Below, in pieces: positions 30,910-37,186 of a stretch of 64,000 bases of DNA (positions are counted from its first letter, which is position 1; each line of letters starts with the position of its first letter). The notes beneath the pieces are model-generated. The model did no database searches. It saw only the letters and a program-made list of their open reading frames with translations, and was not told where the DNA came from. Source of the stretch: Thalassospira povalilytica (lineage in GTDB: Bacteria > Pseudomonadota > Alphaproteobacteria > Rhodospirillales > Thalassospiraceae). The position numbers and the translations under genes were made by a program. Where the stretch lies: NCBI RefSeq assembly GCF_002844235.1, contig NZ_PGTS01000001.1, positions 248,001 to 312,000 of the forward strand, read 5' to 3'.

Positions 30910-30940
30910 TTGCTTGGGGGGCAGGTCGACCAACAATTAG

Positions 30941-31002
30941 AACTCAAAAAAAGACTGCCGTCTTGTTATTTGGTGCAAAGCGATGGTCTTTTTTCTTGAG
31001 TT
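30941..31002. repeat. imperfect long inverted repeat with A/T runs, possible bidirectional terminator
   Basis: AACTCAA-AAAAAGAC (30941-30955) is the near-exact complement of GTCTTTTTTCTTGAGTT (30986-31002), with a 2-base bulge and a 30-base loop. It lies between the GAF-GGDEF gene and the AT-rich cluster, at the point where base composition shifts. Confidence 0.5.
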
Positions 31003-31109
31003 GATTTAAAGTAGAATTATCTAATTTCGATATCAGAAGGATTTTGTCGAATTTAGAAAGCTGTTTGTTTTCGTTTGAGAGAATATTCAGTTAAGTAAGT
31101 CGAGAATAA

Positions 31110-32186
31110 TTAGTCAAAAATAGATGGAAAATCCTGACGAATTCGATCTGATATTTTGGCAGCAATTAGTTTGTTACCGTTTTCTGATAAATGTGAGCCT
31201 TTATCCAGAAAGTAAGTTCCATCTGCAGGCAAAAATTGTGACAGGTCGATAAGCTCTGGGACTTCCATCTCCTTTAAAGCTTCATGATAAAGCTTAAAAA
31301 CATGTTGCTTTGTGGATAGGTGGCTGTGGATGTTTCTGATATCCATTATTGGATCGTTTGGATCATATCCGTCATATGGTGTTGGTAAATATACAAGGTA
31401 AAATGGGATTCCCTGTTGCCTTGCAAAACTTACCGCGTTTTTTACAGCTAAAATAGATTGTTGTACTGCCAAGTTCTGGTTTAATTCTGAATCGCAGATG
31501 AAGTCTTCGTGTTTTTCGATATCACCTTTCCAGAATTTTCTATACAAATTGTAATAAAGATTCTTGCTGTCGTGGTTATTGTTCCTGTTGTTTTGTATGT
31601 TGTAAAATGCAGAACAATTTAATCCGATATCAGTACTTGCACCTGAAATGATAACAAGATCAGGTTTTTTTTCGTTTTGGCTTAAAGAATACCAACGCAA
31701 AACATTCCCGCGTAGGTTCTGCGCAAGTCCAGCATAGTTTTCTACTCGAGTGTTTATCAGATTCCGCTCTAGGTGCGCCGATAATGTCTGGTGATCTGCA
31801 ATCCGATAGCCCCATGCTGGAGATGACCCCAAAAGCAGCACTGTTGATTTTACATCTTGGCGGGGAAGTGGGCCATTAGAGCGCATTCCATCCGCCGAAA
31901 TATTGATTTTCGCAGAATGGTATTCCTTTAGTGCGCCCTCAATACCTGGCATGCGGGAGACAGACAGAGCGGGCCATTTTTCAACTATGTCGTTTACAGA
32001 GCCTGGTTCAACCACCGAAGGCCTTTGAGTTTCAGAAACTTTTTTTTCAATTGCAGACATAGAGTATTCGATGATCGGGATTGTGATATCCGCAAATCCA
32101 CCGACTAGGCATAGGACAATAAAAATTTGGAAAAACCGCGTGCAGACGACGTAGATTTTGGTTTTTGCCTCGTTTTTATTCTTCAT
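31110..32186 (-). CDS. SGNH/GDSL-like membrane-anchored protein of the carbamoyltransferase cluster
   Basis: The 358-residue protein has an N-terminal TM helix (about 10-35) and an extracytoplasmic SGNH domain. The nucleophile block is LLLGSSPAWGYR with Ser122; the usual Asp of GDS is Ser. The catalytic His pair appears in YFLDKGSHLSENGN. It also shows the ISADGMRSNGP segment common in this SGNH group. The ATG lies one base after the carbamoyltransferase stop, so translation is coupled. The coding sequence is much more A+T-rich than flanking genes, suggesting transfer. Related proteins in MBOAT clusters act as O-acetyltransferases or esterases on glycans; that role is inferred here. Confidence 0.8.
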   Translation of the reverse strand: MKNKNEAKTKIYVVCTRFFQIFIVLCLVGGFADITIPIIEYSMSAIEKKVSETQRPSVVEPGSVNDIVEKWPALSVSRMPGIEGALKEYHSAKINISADGMRSNGPLPRQDVKSTVLLLGSSPAWGYRIADHQTLSAHLERNLINTRVENYAGLAQNLRGNVLRWYSLSQNEKKPDLVIISGASTDIGLNCSAFYNIQNNRNNNHDSKNLYYNLYRKFWKGDIEKHEDFICDSELNQNLAVQQSILAVKNAVSFARQQGIPFYLVYLPTPYDGYDPNDPIMDIRNIHSHLSTKQHVFKLYHEALKEMEVPELIDLSQFLPADGTYFLDKGSHLSENGNKLIAAKISDRIRQDFPSIFD

Positions 32187-32187
32187 T

Positions 32188-34017
32188 TTAGTCTGCTTCC
32201 TGATGAAGATGGTACTCGGTTGCAAGCGATTGGTTTTGTTCAGATTTCTTAAGTACGCAGTTGCCAATCACCAGTCGATCCATATCCGTCGCCATAAAAC
32301 AGCGAAACGCCTCTGCCGGGGTGGCGACAATCGGCTCGCCGCGGACATTGAAGCTGGTGTTGATCAGGATAGGGCAGCCGGTTGTCTTTTTAAATGCCTG
32401 TAGCAGTTCGTAATAACGCGGGTTGTCTTGATGGCTCACAGTCTGAAGGCGCGCGGAAAAGTCCGTATGAGTAACGGCTGGAATGTCACTGCGCGGAATA
32501 TCCATATCTATGATATTGTCACGAGCCTGCGCTTCTTGCTCGCCGATGTTGCGGTGTTTCTCTGAAACCGTAGTTACCATCAGCATGTAAGGGGAAGCGG
32601 GGAATGATAAATCAAACCAATCCGCTGCATCCTCTTCGAGAACGCTCGGAGCAAAGGGGCGAAAGCTCTCCCGGAACTTTATCTTCAGGTTCAGCTTCTT
32701 TTGCATGGCCGGGTCACGTGGGTCGGCAAGGATGGAGCGTTGCCCAAGTGCGCGTGGGCCGAATTCCATCCGTCCTTGGAACCAGCCCGTTACTTCTCCG
32801 TTAGCCAGTGCTGTTGCTGTGTCCTGCCAAAGTTCGTTGTCAGGGACTACTAAGAACTTTGCTCCCTCGTGGTTTAATATGTCTTCAATCTCGCTTTGCG
32901 AGAATTCCGGGCCAAGGGCGCAGCTCGCCATTCCATCAGGTTTTAATGGGCTACGAGGAAGTTTAAGGTGCAGATGCGAGGCAGCCAAGGCTGCGCCAAT
33001 TGCACCTCCACTGTCACCGGCAGCGGGCTGGATCCAGATATTTTCAAACAGTCCTTCCGCGGCAATTTTCCCGTTGGCCACACAGTTAAGCGCAACCCCG
33101 CCAGCCAGGCAAAGGTTCTTCTGCCCGGTTTCTTTTGCCATGGCACGACAGATGCTTAGCACAACCGTTTCCGTTACATGCTGTATCGAGGCAGCTATAT
33201 CGGCGTGAAATTGTGTAAGCTGCGCTTCCGGGCGGCGGGCAGGTTCCCCAAACAATTCAGTGAACCGTGTATTGAACATTTTCAGGTCAGTACAATAGCT
33301 GAAATAACGCTGATCAAGGCGGAAGCTTCCATCCGGTCTAAGGTCAATCAGGTTGTCTAAAATCGTCTGAGCAAAACGTGGCTGGCCATAGGGAGCGAGT
33401 CCCATCAGTTTGTATTCGCCAGAATTAACCTTGAACCCTGTGTAGGTTGTAAATGCCGAATAAAGCAGGCCAAGAGAATGAGGAAAATCAAGTTCGCGCA
33501 AGATTTGCAAATCCGCGCCATTGCCAATTCCGACAGAAGTGGTCGATCGCTCACCGACGCCATCCATGGTAATGACAAGTGCATCCTCAAACGGCGACGG
33601 ATAAAAAGCGGACGCCGCGTGACTGAGGTGATGTTCGGAAAACAGTAGTTGCTCCGAAGAAAAACGACCTGGTGCGACCGCCTTCAATTCCTTTAGTAGA
33701 AGAGAACGTTGAAATAGTTTCTCTTTCGCCCATACCGGCAAACCAGCACGGAAAGTTGCAAATCCTTTTGGGGCGAAGCTGAGATAAGTTTCAAGAATTC
33801 GTTCAAATTTCAGGAATGGCTTGTCATAGAATACAACATAGTCGATGGGGGAATTATTAGCCATTTCCATGCAATATTGTACAGCCCTGCTTGGAAAAGC
33901 CGGATCATGCTTGATACGCGAAAAGCGTTCTTCCTGTGCGGCGGCGACGACCCTTCCGTCGCGCACAAGTGCAGCGGCACTATCATGGTAATAGGCGGAC
34001 AGTCCAAGAATTTGCAT
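32188..34017 (-). CDS. carbamoyltransferase (NodU/TobZ-like)
   Basis: The 609-residue enzyme transfers a carbamoyl group from carbamoyl phosphate, through carbamoyl-adenylate, to a hydroxyl of a sugar or small molecule. The Kae1-like N-terminal domain begins ILGLSAYYHDSAAALVRDG, and the metal-binding His motif is SEHHLSHAASAFYPSPF. The nucleotide segments ITMDGVGERSTTSVG and KLMGLAPYG and the C-terminal domain segments CLAGGVALNCVANGKI, EFGPRALGQRSILADPR and ILINTSFNVRGEPIV are all present. No signal peptide is seen, so it is cytoplasmic. It is preceded eight bases earlier by the SxtJ-like gene. The acceptor is unknown. Confidence 0.93.
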   Translation of the reverse strand: MQILGLSAYYHDSAAALVRDGRVVAAAQEERFSRIKHDPAFPSRAVQYCMEMANNSPIDYVVFYDKPFLKFERILETYLSFAPKGFATFRAGLPVWAKEKLFQRSLLLKELKAVAPGRFSSEQLLFSEHHLSHAASAFYPSPFEDALVITMDGVGERSTTSVGIGNGADLQILRELDFPHSLGLLYSAFTTYTGFKVNSGEYKLMGLAPYGQPRFAQTILDNLIDLRPDGSFRLDQRYFSYCTDLKMFNTRFTELFGEPARRPEAQLTQFHADIAASIQHVTETVVLSICRAMAKETGQKNLCLAGGVALNCVANGKIAAEGLFENIWIQPAAGDSGGAIGAALAASHLHLKLPRSPLKPDGMASCALGPEFSQSEIEDILNHEGAKFLVVPDNELWQDTATALANGEVTGWFQGRMEFGPRALGQRSILADPRDPAMQKKLNLKIKFRESFRPFAPSVLEEDAADWFDLSFPASPYMLMVTTVSEKHRNIGEQEAQARDNIIDMDIPRSDIPAVTHTDFSARLQTVSHQDNPRYYELLQAFKKTTGCPILINTSFNVRGEPIVATPAEAFRCFMATDMDRLVIGNCVLKKSEQNQSLATEYHLHQEAD

Positions 34018-34025
34018 GTTCGTAA

Positions 34026-34394
34026 TCAGTATGGCCGAGTAAAGTCGGTGATCTCGTTGCCGTGGGGCTTCCAGTAGCTTTCCTTGCGTCGATCAAATGT
34101 CTTTGACACAGGGTGCCATCCGAAAACTCTGAGAAGCAGCCCCCCAGGCGTGATGAAGGCATAATAAATAATAAAAAGCGCCGTCTCGCTTATCACGATG
34201 TGCATAAAGGCACCAAATTTAGTCCATCCCCGGTTAAGGGGAGACAATGCCTTTGGGATGATTACGGAGACGCATGCGAGTACAACCGATGCTACAGCGA
34301 ATATCCAGCGAGGGTCTTCCGCGTGGCGCAGCGGCAGAAATGCTACAATCATTAAAATGCCACACCAGATGAAACCAAAAATCCTGTTTGACAT
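34026..34394 (-). CDS. SxtJ-like membrane protein
   Basis: This 122-residue protein has three or four hydrophobic helices (about 6-22, 32-48, 63-90) and a polar C-terminus with FGWHPVSKTFDRRKESYW. The pattern matches SxtJ-type proteins, which are found beside carbamoyltransferases, including in cyanobacterial saxitoxin clusters. Its function is unknown. The ATG at 34394 has GGGAGG spaced 6 bases upstream. It is the first gene of the minus-strand arm and lies eight bases before the carbamoyltransferase. Confidence 0.82.
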   Translation of the reverse strand: MSNRIFGFIWCGILMIVAFLPLRHAEDPRWIFAVASVVLACVSVIIPKALSPLNRGWTKFGAFMHIVISETALFIIYYAFITPGGLLLRVFGWHPVSKTFDRRKESYWKPHGNEITDFTRPY

Positions 34395-34534
34395 CAAGCG
34401 CCCTCCCGAAGGCCGTGTTACATTGTTTGTTTCAGGTGTTTAAGTATATGGAAAGGACAATAAATTTATTGCGGAAAATAGGGTTTTTTGGCTAATACCT
34501 GTTGTAGAAAAATAGCGTACTGTGTGGAGCAGGA
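34395..34534. promoter_or_regulatory. divergent promoter region of the carbamoyltransferase/MBOAT cluster
   Basis: The 140-base AT-rich gap separates the two divergent arms of the cluster and must contain their promoters. I cannot assign -35 and -10 boxes with confidence. Confidence 0.5.
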
Positions 34535-34687
34535 ATGAGATTTCTCAGTGATCTTTTCGGATTTCTGTTTAGTAAGAAATCGCGATTAATTTTAATTCCG
34601 TTTTCTTTGCTGATTTTAATATTTGCGGTGGTTTTCGTCGTGCTGGGAAATGCCAGCTGGGCGCCGTTTGTATACGCAGTATTCTGA
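34535..34687 (+). CDS. DUF5989-like 50-residue membrane protein
   Basis: This short gene encodes a hydrophobic protein (MRFLSDLFGFLFSKKSRLIL, one TM helix about 17-39, then a C-terminal NASWAPFVYAVF). The pattern of FL-x-L-F-x-FL, a charged KK/R turn, a TM helix and an APF-Y terminus is what I recall for DUF5989, a family seen next to SxtJ and carbamoyltransferase genes. GGAG lies about 5 bases before the ATG. It begins the plus-strand arm, with its stop three bases before the SGNH gene. Function is unknown. Confidence 0.75.
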   Translation: MRFLSDLFGFLFSKKSRLILIPFSLLILIFAVVFVVLGNASWAPFVYAVF

Positions 34688-34690
34688 TCT

Positions 34691-35668
34691 ATGGCGATTA
34701 AAAAAACTTTAGCAGGACGGTTTCTGTCCAGTTTGGTACTGATCCTGTGTGGTTTGGCCCTTGCTTGTGGGGCTGGGGAAGTCCTGGTGAGGATCGCCAC
34801 AGCTGATCAGAACAATTATCTTATCGAGATGTGGCGCTATGCAACGCTTTTGAAGCGGGAAAGTTCAGATCCGGCAATCGGTCACGAGCATATCCCCGGT
34901 GCCTCTGCGCGTCTGCAAGGGGTGGAGGTTTCCATCAATTCACTCGGTATGCGCGGACCAGAGCCCGACCTGACCACTCGAGATAAAGAACGTGTGGTCA
35001 TTGTCGGGGATTCGATCGCAATGGGCTGGGGGGTGCCGGAAAAAGACACGTTGCGCGGCCAGCTTGCCGAGCGTCTGGGACCAGACGTCGAAGTCATGAC
35101 GACCGGTGTTGGCAACATGAATATGTCCCAGACCGTTCAACATTGGCTGGAATATAGTGAAAAAATTCATCCTGATACTGTAATCCTGCTGGCGACGGCC
35201 CGGGCGCCGATCATCCAGAAAACTGATCAAGCGGGATGGTTGGTCCGCCACAGCCAGCTATATGCACTTATCGTTTCCTTTGTTGAAATGACTACCGGTT
35301 CCGGTTCGGGCGAAGAAGGGCTGGTAGATTCCTATCGAGCCGTTTGGGGTGGCGGACCCGGAAAGGCCGCGATGGACAGTGCGATGGACCGGCTTATGCA
35401 GGATCAGGAAGAGCATGGATATCGTGTCATTGTTCTTTTGGTACCTGAACCTCACAGTTTTGATCCGTATCGTTTCGGCTTTATAAATAGTGTGATGGCG
35501 ACAGAGATCCAAAAACGGGGATGGGTCCTCGTCGATCCTTTGCCAGTGATGGAAGCTGCCCCTGCTGAAAGCTACTGGGTTGCCTCAAATGATGTGCATC
35601 CGAATGCAAAGGCATTCCAAATCTTTGCCGATCTCTTGGTGCCGGAACTTGCGCGTTCGAAGGAATAG
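34691..35668 (+). CDS. SGNH/GDSL hydrolase-type protein, membrane anchored
   Basis: The 325-residue protein has an N-terminal signal anchor (about 11-30) and a periplasmic SGNH domain. The nucleophile block VIVGDSIAMGWGV has Ser108, and the C-terminal Asp-His pair is D301/H303 in NDVHPNAKAF. INSLGMRGPEP precedes the nucleophile, as in the SGNH protein at 31110. It lies three bases after the DUF5989-like gene and six before the MBOAT gene. By analogy with AlgI/AlgJ/AlgX-like pairs it may complete O-acylation of an exported glycan, or act as an esterase. Confidence 0.85.
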   Translation: MAIKKTLAGRFLSSLVLILCGLALACGAGEVLVRIATADQNNYLIEMWRYATLLKRESSDPAIGHEHIPGASARLQGVEVSINSLGMRGPEPDLTTRDKERVVIVGDSIAMGWGVPEKDTLRGQLAERLGPDVEVMTTGVGNMNMSQTVQHWLEYSEKIHPDTVILLATARAPIIQKTDQAGWLVRHSQLYALIVSFVEMTTGSGSGEEGLVDSYRAVWGGGPGKAAMDSAMDRLMQDQEEHGYRVIVLLVPEPHSFDPYRFGFINSVMATEIQKRGWVLVDPLPVMEAAPAESYWVASNDVHPNAKAFQIFADLLVPELARSKE

Positions 35669-35674
35669 GTTGCG

Positions 35675-37039
35675 ATGCTCTTTCAGTTGCCATCGTTTCT
35701 GATTTTCTTTGTCGCATTCTGTGCCTTCTTTGCGATCTGCCCTAAGCGTTTGCGGCTGGTTTATGTTACTTTGGCCAGTCTTTTCTTTTATGCTTGGTGG
35801 TATCCGCCGTATCTTATTTTGCTTGTTGGAATGGTGGTCGGATGTTGGCTGCTTTTACAATTGATCTGGCGCGATAAAGGCTGGCTGACTGTCGCGCTTA
35901 TTTTAGCATTTATGCCGTTGGTGTTTTTCAAATATATGGACTTTTTGTTGGAGTCTGTTGCGGCGTTAACAGGGCTTGAAACACCGCATTTTGGCTGGAC
36001 CGTGCCGCTTGCTGTGTCTTTCGTAACCTTTTCTGTCGTCAGTTACATGGTTGATACGGCGCGGCAGCCTGGGAAAACTCCACCAAGATTCTGGTCAACA
36101 GCGGTTTATGTGACCTTCTTTCCGCATCTGATCGCAGGTCCGATATTGCGGGCTCATCACATTTTGCCGCAGTTGCCGCAACTGCGGCTGGATCGCGCTG
36201 CGTTTGTGTCTAATCTTGCGTTGTTTACAACGGGGATGCTGAAGAAAGTACTGGTCGCTGATCCAGTCGGTGTTTTTGTTGATCAGGCTTATGCCGGGCA
36301 CGCAACGCTTTCCGGCTGGGAGGCGCTTGTTGCGATATTCGGTTTTTCTATCCAGATTTATTGTGATTTTTCTGCATATTCTGATATGGCGATTGCGCTT
36401 GCTGGCATGCTTGGAATCAATTTTCCAGAGAACTTTCGCTCACCATATGGGTCTGCCTCGTTAAGCGAAATATGGCGGCGCTGGCATATGACGCTTAGTT
36501 TCTGGCTGCGCGATTATGTTTTCAAGCCTCTGCATCACCGCTTGCATAAATACGCTCGTCAACTTTCAATCATACTGACCATGACGCTATCAGGTCTATG
36601 GCATGGCGCAGCGTGGACTTTCGTTCTCTGGGGGCTTATCCAGGGGCTGATTATTTCAATCGAAAGTGCCAGCGGCTATTCGAAATATGCCAATAAGGTT
36701 CGTGGCTGGCAGCGTGCTTTTTGTATCGGATTGACTTTTCTGGTCTGGTCTTTCTTGACGGTTATCTTTCGTGCACCAAATCTGTCGGTGGCATATGATG
36801 TGGCAATTGGCGGATTTGTTCATGGGGACTGGATCACCTGGCCAGCAGCGGCGACCATGCCTGTAATCTGGGGGGCAATCCTGCTGGTCTTACACCCGTT
36901 CGATCAGATTGAGAAAATTCGCACAGCGGCGACACGCATTCCGGCGCAATTGCTGGTCCCGGTGTTGTTTATGCTGATTGTAGGCAGTTCGATTCTGGCG
37001 TCGCAGCAACCACAAAACTTCTATTATTTTGATTTCTAG
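35675..37039 (+). CDS. MBOAT family O-acyltransferase (AlgI/PatA-like)
   Basis: The 454-residue integral membrane protein of about ten to twelve TM helices moves an acyl group across the membrane. The AlgI-family segments are YFPHLIAGPILRAHHIL-like (FFPHLIAGPILRAHHILPQL), DFSAYSDMAIALAGMLGI, SEIWRRWHMTLSFWLRDYVF and the catalytic His motif GLWHGAAWTFVLWGLIQG. It ends the plus-strand arm. The final residues are hydrophobic with no cytoplasmic tail beyond YYFDF. A role in O-acetylating a polysaccharide or glycolipid together with the neighbouring SGNH protein is inferred from family biology. Confidence 0.93.
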   Translation: MLFQLPSFLIFFVAFCAFFAICPKRLRLVYVTLASLFFYAWWYPPYLILLVGMVVGCWLLLQLIWRDKGWLTVALILAFMPLVFFKYMDFLLESVAALTGLETPHFGWTVPLAVSFVTFSVVSYMVDTARQPGKTPPRFWSTAVYVTFFPHLIAGPILRAHHILPQLPQLRLDRAAFVSNLALFTTGMLKKVLVADPVGVFVDQAYAGHATLSGWEALVAIFGFSIQIYCDFSAYSDMAIALAGMLGINFPENFRSPYGSASLSEIWRRWHMTLSFWLRDYVFKPLHHRLHKYARQLSIILTMTLSGLWHGAAWTFVLWGLIQGLIISIESASGYSKYANKVRGWQRAFCIGLTFLVWSFLTVIFRAPNLSVAYDVAIGGFVHGDWITWPAAATMPVIWGAILLVLHPFDQIEKIRTAATRIPAQLLVPVLFMLIVGSSILASQQPQNFYYFDF

Positions 37040-37075
37040 GGGTGGCAAGATTTCTTGCTGAAAGACAAAAATAGA

Positions 37076-37107
37076 AAACCGCTTTGAGGAAAACCTCAAA
37101 GCGGTTT
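37076..37107. terminator. bidirectional terminator between the MBOAT gene and tRNA-Gln
   Basis: A perfect 14-bp stem (AAACCGCTTTGAGG with CCTCAAAGCGGTTT) and AAAA loop. The minus-strand side ends in a T-rich run (TTTCTATTTTTG), so it serves the tRNA; it also lies about 37 bases after the MBOAT stop. Confidence 0.92.
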
Positions 37108-37111
37108 GTCT

Positions 37112-37186
37112 TGGCTGGGGCGGTAGGATTCGAACCTACGGTACACGATACCAAAAACCGATGCCTTACCACTTGGCCACGCCCCA
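37112..37186 (-). tRNA. tRNA-Gln (anticodon TTG)
   Basis: On the minus strand the 75-base sequence folds into a cloverleaf. The acceptor stem is TGGGGCG/CGCCCCA, the D-arm is GCCAAGTGGTAAGGC, the anticodon loop is TTTTGGT (anticodon TTG), and the T-arm is GTAGGTTCGAATCCTAC. The discriminator is G and the CCA end is encoded. The outermost pair of the anticodon stem is T-T, which is unusual but compatible with function. Confidence 0.96.

Follow-up and report, generated by a model that had tools for sequence, protein, structure and literature searches.

Six neighboring genes of Thalassospira povalilytica, located in a 64,000-nucleotide stretch of DNA (contig NZ_PGTS01000001.1, positions 248,001 to 312,000; hereafter the window), form a real and widespread set, which we read as a variant of the tyrosine-relay tagging systems. 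They encode a NodU/TobZ-type O-carbamoyltransferase (CT), a small SxtJ-like membrane protein, a microprotein of the Pfam family DUF5989, an AlgI/DltB-type MBOAT and two SGNH-type proteins, SGNH_B and the proposed SGNH_A, and they look like machinery for attaching two different small chemical groups to something extracellular. The reading we favor, with a probability of roughly 55%, is extracytoplasmic tagging along two parallel arms: a carbamoyl arm of CT/SxtJ, DUF5989 and SGNH_B, and an acyl arm of MBOAT and SGNH_A. That DUF5989 is the carbamoyl shuttle, i.e., a DltX-like microprotein on which carbamoyl, loaded by a cytoplasmic carbamoyltransferase, crosses the membrane as carbamoyl-tyrosine and from which SGNH proteins place it on exported molecules, is a proposition with about even odds. 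The observations behind these statements are the gene content, the recurrence of the set, the motif at the C-terminus of DUF5989, the co-occurrence of the families, and a fusion of CT with SxtJ; the presence of carbamoyl on the tyrosine, the path offered by SxtJ, the assignment of the SGNH proteins to the arms, and the identity of the acceptor are points that we infer.

Recurrence of the six-gene set

Of 246 loci confirmed on scanning a set of 84,980 species, the best 80 were kept. Recurrence was counted in 133 loci (L032-L067 and L086-L182), a nonrandom sample in which all loci were chosen via DUF5989 or SGNH_B. Relatives of all six proteins occur together in 23 of these loci, and two genomes are represented twice, which leaves 21 distinct sets besides that of the window. 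Their taxonomic reach extends from the Alpha-, Beta-, and Gammaproteobacteria to a metagenome-assembled genome (MAG) of the Desulfobacteraceae, with hosts such as Ancylobacter, Dechloromonas, Roseateles, Janthinobacterium, Sphingomonas, Blastomonas, and Insolitispirillum. Nine gene orders are found among the 21 sets. The divergent order of the window is present at six loci, the single-operon order DUF5989-SGNH_B-SxtJ-CT-MBOAT-SGNH_A at three (T. mesophila, Marinomonas, and Vibrio ruber), and the single-operon order SxtJ-DUF5989-CT-SGNH_B-MBOAT-SGNH_A at five methanotroph loci, while the remaining six orders differ from these layouts. SGNH_A is represented by a weaker relative in the methanotroph loci and in L149, L155, and L166.

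Because of these counts, the association of the six genes is not attributable to chance. The initial annotation had held that the genes belong together and had proposed a comparison of gene neighborhoods; this comparison bears the claim out, as the set recurs beyond close relatives and through rearrangement. Within the class, the SGNH_B profile has matches in 17 of 385 genomes (own genome included), and DUF5989 is present in 51 of 100 relatives, yet in just five of 29 genomes of the same genus (own genome included). Around 36 DUF5989 loci, CT and SxtJ are nearly always present (35 matches each).

The C-terminal tail of DUF5989

DUF5989 proteins consist of a basic N-terminus followed by a single transmembrane (TM) helix and a short tail. 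Among 83 distinct tails, 80 read F.Y..F, two read L.Y..F, and one is cut by a contig end, the tyrosine standing at position -4 in 82. According to PMC12148441, the tyrosine of the C-terminal FXYXXF motif carries D-Ala in DltX, PatA auto-acetylates the tyrosine of its own C-terminal motif, and PatB accepts acetyl from such a peptide; the same paper describes Dlt as the one MBOAT pathway with a DltX-like microprotein. Such an ending is rarely due to chance: [FL].Y..[FL] was found in 165 of 19,599 complete open reading frames (ORFs). Sorting these by tail pattern, rather than by a family search, left seven after removal of MBOAT- and DUF5989-type tails, of which three are DUF5989 and four (three distinct genes) are chance-like.

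From the resemblance of the two sequences, DUF5989 could be taken for an MBOAT tail that has become a separate protein. With its cut-off at 27 bits, the Pfam model of DUF5989 matches the C-terminus of one MBOAT at 33 bits and, under the cut-off, that of another at 24 bits. Furthermore, MBOAT tails outscore other TM tails in their resemblance to DUF5989 (64 versus 268; p 4e-10), an excess that persists when the last six residues are left out (p 2e-8). In two MBOATs, L214 1722-3242 (ending FIYMVF) and L215 488-1993 (FIYMIF), the C-terminal helix and the tail match the DUF5989 model, a possible sign that DUF5989 and the MBOAT tail are related by descent, in one direction or the other.

The tail motif is also present in 63 of 64 distinct uncut MBOATs, which therefore have no need of DUF5989; judged from its sequence, DUF5989 would be a second shuttle beside the MBOAT's own motif. 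It shares with DltX its small size, its single TM helix, and the C-terminal FxYxxF. The Pfam matches of three DUF5989 proteins, taken at E up to 2, include no DltX model. It departs from DltX in not serving an MBOAT that lacks a motif, as judged from those 63 MBOATs and from the 17 of 51 DUF5989 genomes that have no MBOAT.

Families associated with DUF5989

Among the 100 relatives, CT is present in all 51 genomes with DUF5989 versus 13 of the 49 without it (Fisher 1.3e-16), and Pfam SxtJ, a model below which the SxtJ of the window falls, in 47 of 51 versus two of 49. In a sample of the phylum, 56 of 398 genomes have DUF5989 above the cut-off, and CT occurs in all 56, compared to 135 of 398 overall. 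The figure of 56 omits two genomes (G570 and G593) with a sub-cut-off DUF5989 only, of which G570 has no CT match. CT lies within 3 kb of 57 of the 63 DUF5989 matches in the phylum genomes and of 54 of the 61 in the relatives. At distances of up to 250 bp, 82 distinct DUF5989 genes are accompanied by CT in 53 cases, SxtJ on the same strand in 50, SGNH_B on the same strand in 24, MBOAT in one, and none of these in four. Of 11 genomes picked because CT was missing from the stretch around DUF5989, nine have CT elsewhere and the other two belong to the genus Tistrella; this check covered 12 genomes, including G260 as a comparator with CT beside DUF5989.

The link extends to SGNH_B. When genomes with SGNH_B have no good DUF5989 nearby, DUF5989 is found elsewhere in 18 of 21 distinct genomes (22 of 26 before duplicates, recognized by identical contigs, sizes, and coordinates, were merged), against a base rate of 56/398; one of the 21 (L120 = G142 = G487) has a weak, 28-bit DUF5989-like match within the locus and a strong one elsewhere. 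Two short contigs, L098 and L177, each contain two DUF5989 genes, one adjoining CT and the other adjoining SGNH_B; their length and gene content are the same, and they are probably one contig. Among 46 chosen neighbors of canonical SxtJ-DUF5989-CT triads, RsmB/NusB and heparinase-like genes are the common ones.

In the CT tree, 67 of the 73 rows in the group of the window CT have SxtJ and DUF5989 nearby. Neither gene is near CT in 21 rows, of which 18 fall outside this group; the fork is weakly supported. The SxtJ-CT pairs of L183 (G053) and L184 (G032) belong to the linked group. In a further locus, L115, from a Desulfovibrio MAG, CT and SxtJ are fused as one protein of 712 aa (SxtJ profile 2e-15); thus, an enzyme of a cytoplasmic family is tethered to a membrane protein. 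Another unusual CT, of 925 aa, is encoded by a Woesearchaeota MAG (L153 5099-7876) and has an intein-like insert in its C-terminal half.

Proposed mechanism and its alternatives

TobZ/NodU enzymes make an activated carbamoyl group, and aryl carbamates are good carbamoyl donors to serine hydrolases, as in the case of the carbamate inhibitors of cholinesterase. In the two-arm scheme, CT would make the activated carbamoyl group in the cytoplasm, and SxtJ would hold CT at the membrane and presumably give the carbamoyl a path. This group would then pass to Tyr47 in the FxYxxF tail of DUF5989, and the resulting aryl carbamate would be transferred to the serine of SGNH_B and from there to a hydroxyl group of the exported acceptor. 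In parallel, the MBOAT would load the tyrosine of its own FYYFDF motif from acyl-CoA, the group being probably acetyl, and SGNH_A would move it to the same or a neighboring acceptor. The acyl arm agrees with the initial annotation, which took MBOAT plus SGNH as a device for extracytoplasmic acyl transfer, and the gene content fits. Its proposal that the acceptor is carbamoylated in the cytoplasm appears doubtful: CT goes with a membrane protein, SxtJ, as in the fusion, and with the shuttle-tailed DUF5989, which suggests that carbamoyl is also delivered outside. The shuttle motif had gone unnoticed in the initial annotation.

Gene order speaks both ways on the assignment of the arms. SGNH_B adjoins DUF5989 in 13 of the 21 distinct sets (those of the first five layouts) and SGNH_A adjoins MBOAT in 13, but SGNH_B adjoins MBOAT in 18 and SGNH_A adjoins CT in 10, as it does in the window. 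The last two figures weigh against the two-arm scheme, and so do several others. The genome co-occurrence counts are raw and ignore kinship; seven of 61 and six of 63 DUF5989 matches lie apart from CT; an SxtJ-CT pair with no DUF5989 found occurs in two genomes (G032 and G053); and an SGNH relative was found in just 13 of 33 canonical SxtJ-DUF5989-CT loci. Moreover, we know of no carbamoyl-tyrosine relay, and the NodU-family enzymes of known function use, to our knowledge, cytoplasmic acceptors that are either soluble or lipid. MBOAT is found more often in genomes with DUF5989 than in those without it (34/51 versus 16/49; p 0.001), a weaker association than that of CT, and two genomes of the genus Tistrella (G357 and G132) retain DUF5989-SGNH_B-MBOAT-SGNH_A with no CT match. 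These two observations likewise count against the two-arm scheme; together with the SGNH_B-MBOAT adjacency and the resemblance of DUF5989 to MBOAT C-termini, they favor a different role for the microprotein, namely, that of an additional acyl carrier working with the MBOAT: the MBOAT tail would serve one SGNH protein, DUF5989 would feed acyl groups to SGNH_B, and CT would work separately. We regard this as improbable, given that the 17 DUF5989 genomes without a Pfam MBOAT match include several listed as 97-100% complete, that CT accompanies DUF5989 in every genome of both samples (51/51 and 56/56), and that a single DUF5989 gene of the 82 has an MBOAT within 250 bp.

A second alternative, close to the initial annotation, is that carbamoylation by CT takes place in the cytoplasm on a (possibly lipid-linked) acceptor, SxtJ and DUF5989 serving only as membrane anchors, and that this acceptor, once exported, is acylated by MBOAT and one SGNH protein, the other SGNH protein stripping off acyl or carbamoyl. 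In its favor, the known NodU/TobZ/GdmN enzymes are cytoplasmic, and the window CT has NovN, GdmN, and TobZ as sequence relatives. In addition, carbamoyl cleavage was proposed for SxtL, the GDSL protein of a comparable set, in PMC2679770, and the PatAB operon has the SGNH esterase Ape1 beside the transferase (PMC12148441). What this scheme leaves unexplained is the C-terminal FxYxxF of DUF5989, kept in 82 of 83 tails (the two beginning with L included), as well as the presence of DUF5989 in SGNH_B genomes even when the two genes are distant, and we consider it unlikely, although worth keeping in view. The least probable reading is that the six genes merely travel together as mobile cargo with no joint function. 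It would suit the slot beside a tRNA-Gln gene in which the set lies (see below) and which has inserts of other lengths in other strains, and it would suit the CT tree, where alpha- and betaproteobacterial rows intermix; the window CT groups with rows of both classes (7 rows, 99%), which suggests transfer. Similarly, no Pfam family occurs more than three times among the 70 genes flanking 12 of the sets (a thirteenth, L103, gave none). Mere cargo is at odds with a set that persists through nine gene orders and with DUF5989, CT, SxtJ, and SGNH_B being linked genome-wide even when their genes are apart.

As to the acceptor, the absence of a glycan-synthesis gene nearby, already pointed out in the initial annotation, holds for the scanned flanks (26.6-30.9 and 37.2-42.0 kb). 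Among the genes flanking the 12 sets, glycan-gene families make up four or five of the 25 families listed. In the genus Tistrella (L108 8620-9548 and 13733-13939; L086, L087, and L088), related ORFs of 47-82 aa with the pattern W-x-RP-x-L ... ETA ... D ... S adjoin DUF5989 and SGNH_A. One of the four that were scanned has a sub-cut-off match to the paeninodin lasso-peptide model, and these small ORFs may possibly encode a ribosomal peptide acceptor in that genus.

Comparison with known systems

The CT of the set has both domains of the family that comprises NodU, TobZ, GdmN, and NovN; the set differs in that, as far as we know, none of the characterized enzymes requires SxtJ or DUF5989. The MBOAT has the features of the PatA/AlgI kind, i.e., an MBOAT domain, an invariant histidine, and a C-terminal FxYxxF. 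As in PatAB and other AlgI-type MBOAT-SGNH systems, an MBOAT ending in FxYFxF adjoins SGNH proteins, but here CT, SxtJ, DUF5989, and a second SGNH protein are present in addition. The likeness to the Dlt system consists of a one-TM microprotein with a C-terminal FxYxxF (DltX, as described in PMC12148441), an SGNH protein (DltD), and a multi-TM partner. Unlike in Dlt, the microprotein pairs with a soluble carbamoyltransferase and SxtJ instead of the MBOAT, the MBOAT has its own tail, and no DltC-like carrier protein is found among the six genes.

The closest precedent for the CT half is sxtI-J-K-L of cyanobacterial, saxitoxin-type clusters, where a carbamoyltransferase gene, two genes of unknown role (405 and 165 nt), and a GDSL gene stand in a row, and for which a joint role of SxtI, SxtJ, and SxtK in carbamoylation was proposed (PMC2679770). 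In addition, genes like sxtJ, K, L, and O are reported for the suomilide cluster (PMC10157211). The alikeness covers the carbamoyltransferase, SxtJ, the 165-nt gene, and the GDSL gene; the differences are that the cyanobacterial clusters are small-molecule clusters and that the part of the gene list covered has no MBOAT. A comparison by description alone gives the lead that SxtK could be homologous to DUF5989. The initial annotation called the system probably undescribed; for the CT part this is not entirely so, since the published grouping makes this half a known one whose roles are unknown. No description of this set or of DUF5989 as a shuttle, and no paper on DUF5989, was found in the literature searched, most subscription papers being outside its reach.

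The locus and its gene products

The six genes lie intact within 31110-37039 of the window (Table 1), with SGNH_A, CT, and the SxtJ-like gene in the leftward-reading arm and DUF5989, SGNH_B, and MBOAT in the rightward-reading one. Pfam backs four of the proteins, and SGNH_A and the SxtJ-like protein are placed via relatives.

Table 1. Coordinates of the six genes and of the features on their right border, numbered from the first nucleotide of the window
Feature	Position	Strand	Description
SGNH_A	31110..32186	-	358 aa; N-terminal TM anchor; Ser122, Asp328, His332; proposed SGNH transferase of the acyl arm
NodU/TobZ-type O-carbamoyltransferase (CT)	32188..34017	-	609 aa; Pfam PF02543 and PF16861
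SxtJ-like small membrane protein	34026..34394	-	about 3 TM by hydropathy; proposed CT anchor/membrane conduit
DUF5989 microprotein	34535..34687	+	50 aa; one TM; basic N-terminus; end FVYAVF, Tyr47; proposed carbamoyl shuttle
SGNH_B	34691..35668	+	325 aa; N-terminal TM anchor; GDS Ser108, Asp301, His303; proposed SGNH transferase of the carbamoyl arm
AlgI/DltB-type MBOAT	35675..37039	+	454 aa; His310; own C-terminal shuttle motif FYYFDF (Tyr451)
Terminator-like perfect 14-bp inverted repeat	37076..37107		between the MBOAT gene and tRNA-Gln
tRNA-Gln(TTG)	37112..37186	-	border of the variable slot containing the set

CT matches Carbam_trans_N (6.9e-100, 335 bits, cut-off 24) and Carbam_trans_C (5.9e-74, 248 bits, cut-off 27) over its whole length, and its nearest solved structures, by phmmer against the PDB, are NovN (4.9e-100), GdmN, and TobZ. 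The DUF5989 protein matches PF19451 at 42.3 bits (cut-off 27) over model positions 1-49 of 49. The MBOAT domain is recognized by Pfam with an E value of 6.7e-20, the sole PDB match at E up to 0.001 is DltB, and His310 is invariant in three aligned rows. For SGNH_B, the match to GDSL_2 (4.5e-8, 34.2 bits) is just above the cut-off of 32.9, and the catalytic-type residues listed in Table 1 are invariant across 16 aligned rows.

SGNH_A has no Pfam or NCBIfam match at E up to 0.01. Its relatives keep a G-x-S-x-x-x-G block and D-x3-H columns in 14 of 14 alignment rows, and its AlphaFold2 model is alpha/beta, with a mean predicted local distance difference test (pLDDT) score of 79; an SGNH identity is proposed from the conserved Ser/Asp/His columns and this model. 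The start is most likely the ATG at 32186, which is preferred because the TTG frame to 32267 extends back into CT. The SxtJ-like protein, with a start taken as the ATG at 34394, does not match PF19588 (SxtJ) itself and is so named through its relatives only: four of the seven proteins aligned with it match Pfam SxtJ, and used as a query it gave 35 matches in the ORFs around 36 DUF5989 loci.

The tRNA-Gln slot

The six genes fill a 6.2-kb slot adjoining tRNA-Gln (30910-37112), and the G+C content is 0.46-0.50 across 30-36 kb versus about 0.55 in the surrounding DNA. The left flank contains genes for GGDEF, CutC, ROK, and M16 peptidase proteins, and the right flank contains tRNA-Gln followed by genes for a GHMP kinase, a TPR protein, a DJ-1 protein, and an M20 peptidase. 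Among 11 other Thalassospira sites, the slot is empty in five (L206, L207, L210, L212, and L213), with 50-216 bp from the tRNA to GGDEF/cutC, is occupied by 1.6-14.6 kb of other DNA in five (L203, L204, L205, L208, and L209), and contains the same set in one (L211 = G028). As the slot is empty or differently filled in other strains, it is variable, and the set appears to have entered it late.

The slot resembles an insertion hotspot in Thalassospira (the window, L205, L208, and L209). The idea of a tRNA-borne integrative element that encodes its integrase was considered and dropped, as the slot contains the six genes only and no duplicate of the tRNA-Gln 3' end was found in the window. In G018, however, the same site has a second, 19-nt copy of the tRNA 3' end, about 9.7 kb from the tRNA.

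Biological significance

Carbamoyl groups have so far been linked to cytoplasmic enzymes. The present set suggests that carbamoyl may be delivered outside the cell by the kind of tyrosine relay that serves in the D-alanylation of teichoic acid and the O-acetylation of peptidoglycan. If this is true, tyrosine-relay tagging would have a third type of donor unit, CT with its partners, alongside MBOAT and AT3, and DUF5989 and SxtJ would have a role across the Pseudomonadota and beyond. It could also explain the small proteins of unknown role that accompany carbamoyltransferases in natural-product clusters. DUF5989, a Pfam family of unknown function present in about one in seven of the sampled phylum genomes (56/398), thereby gains a testable role.

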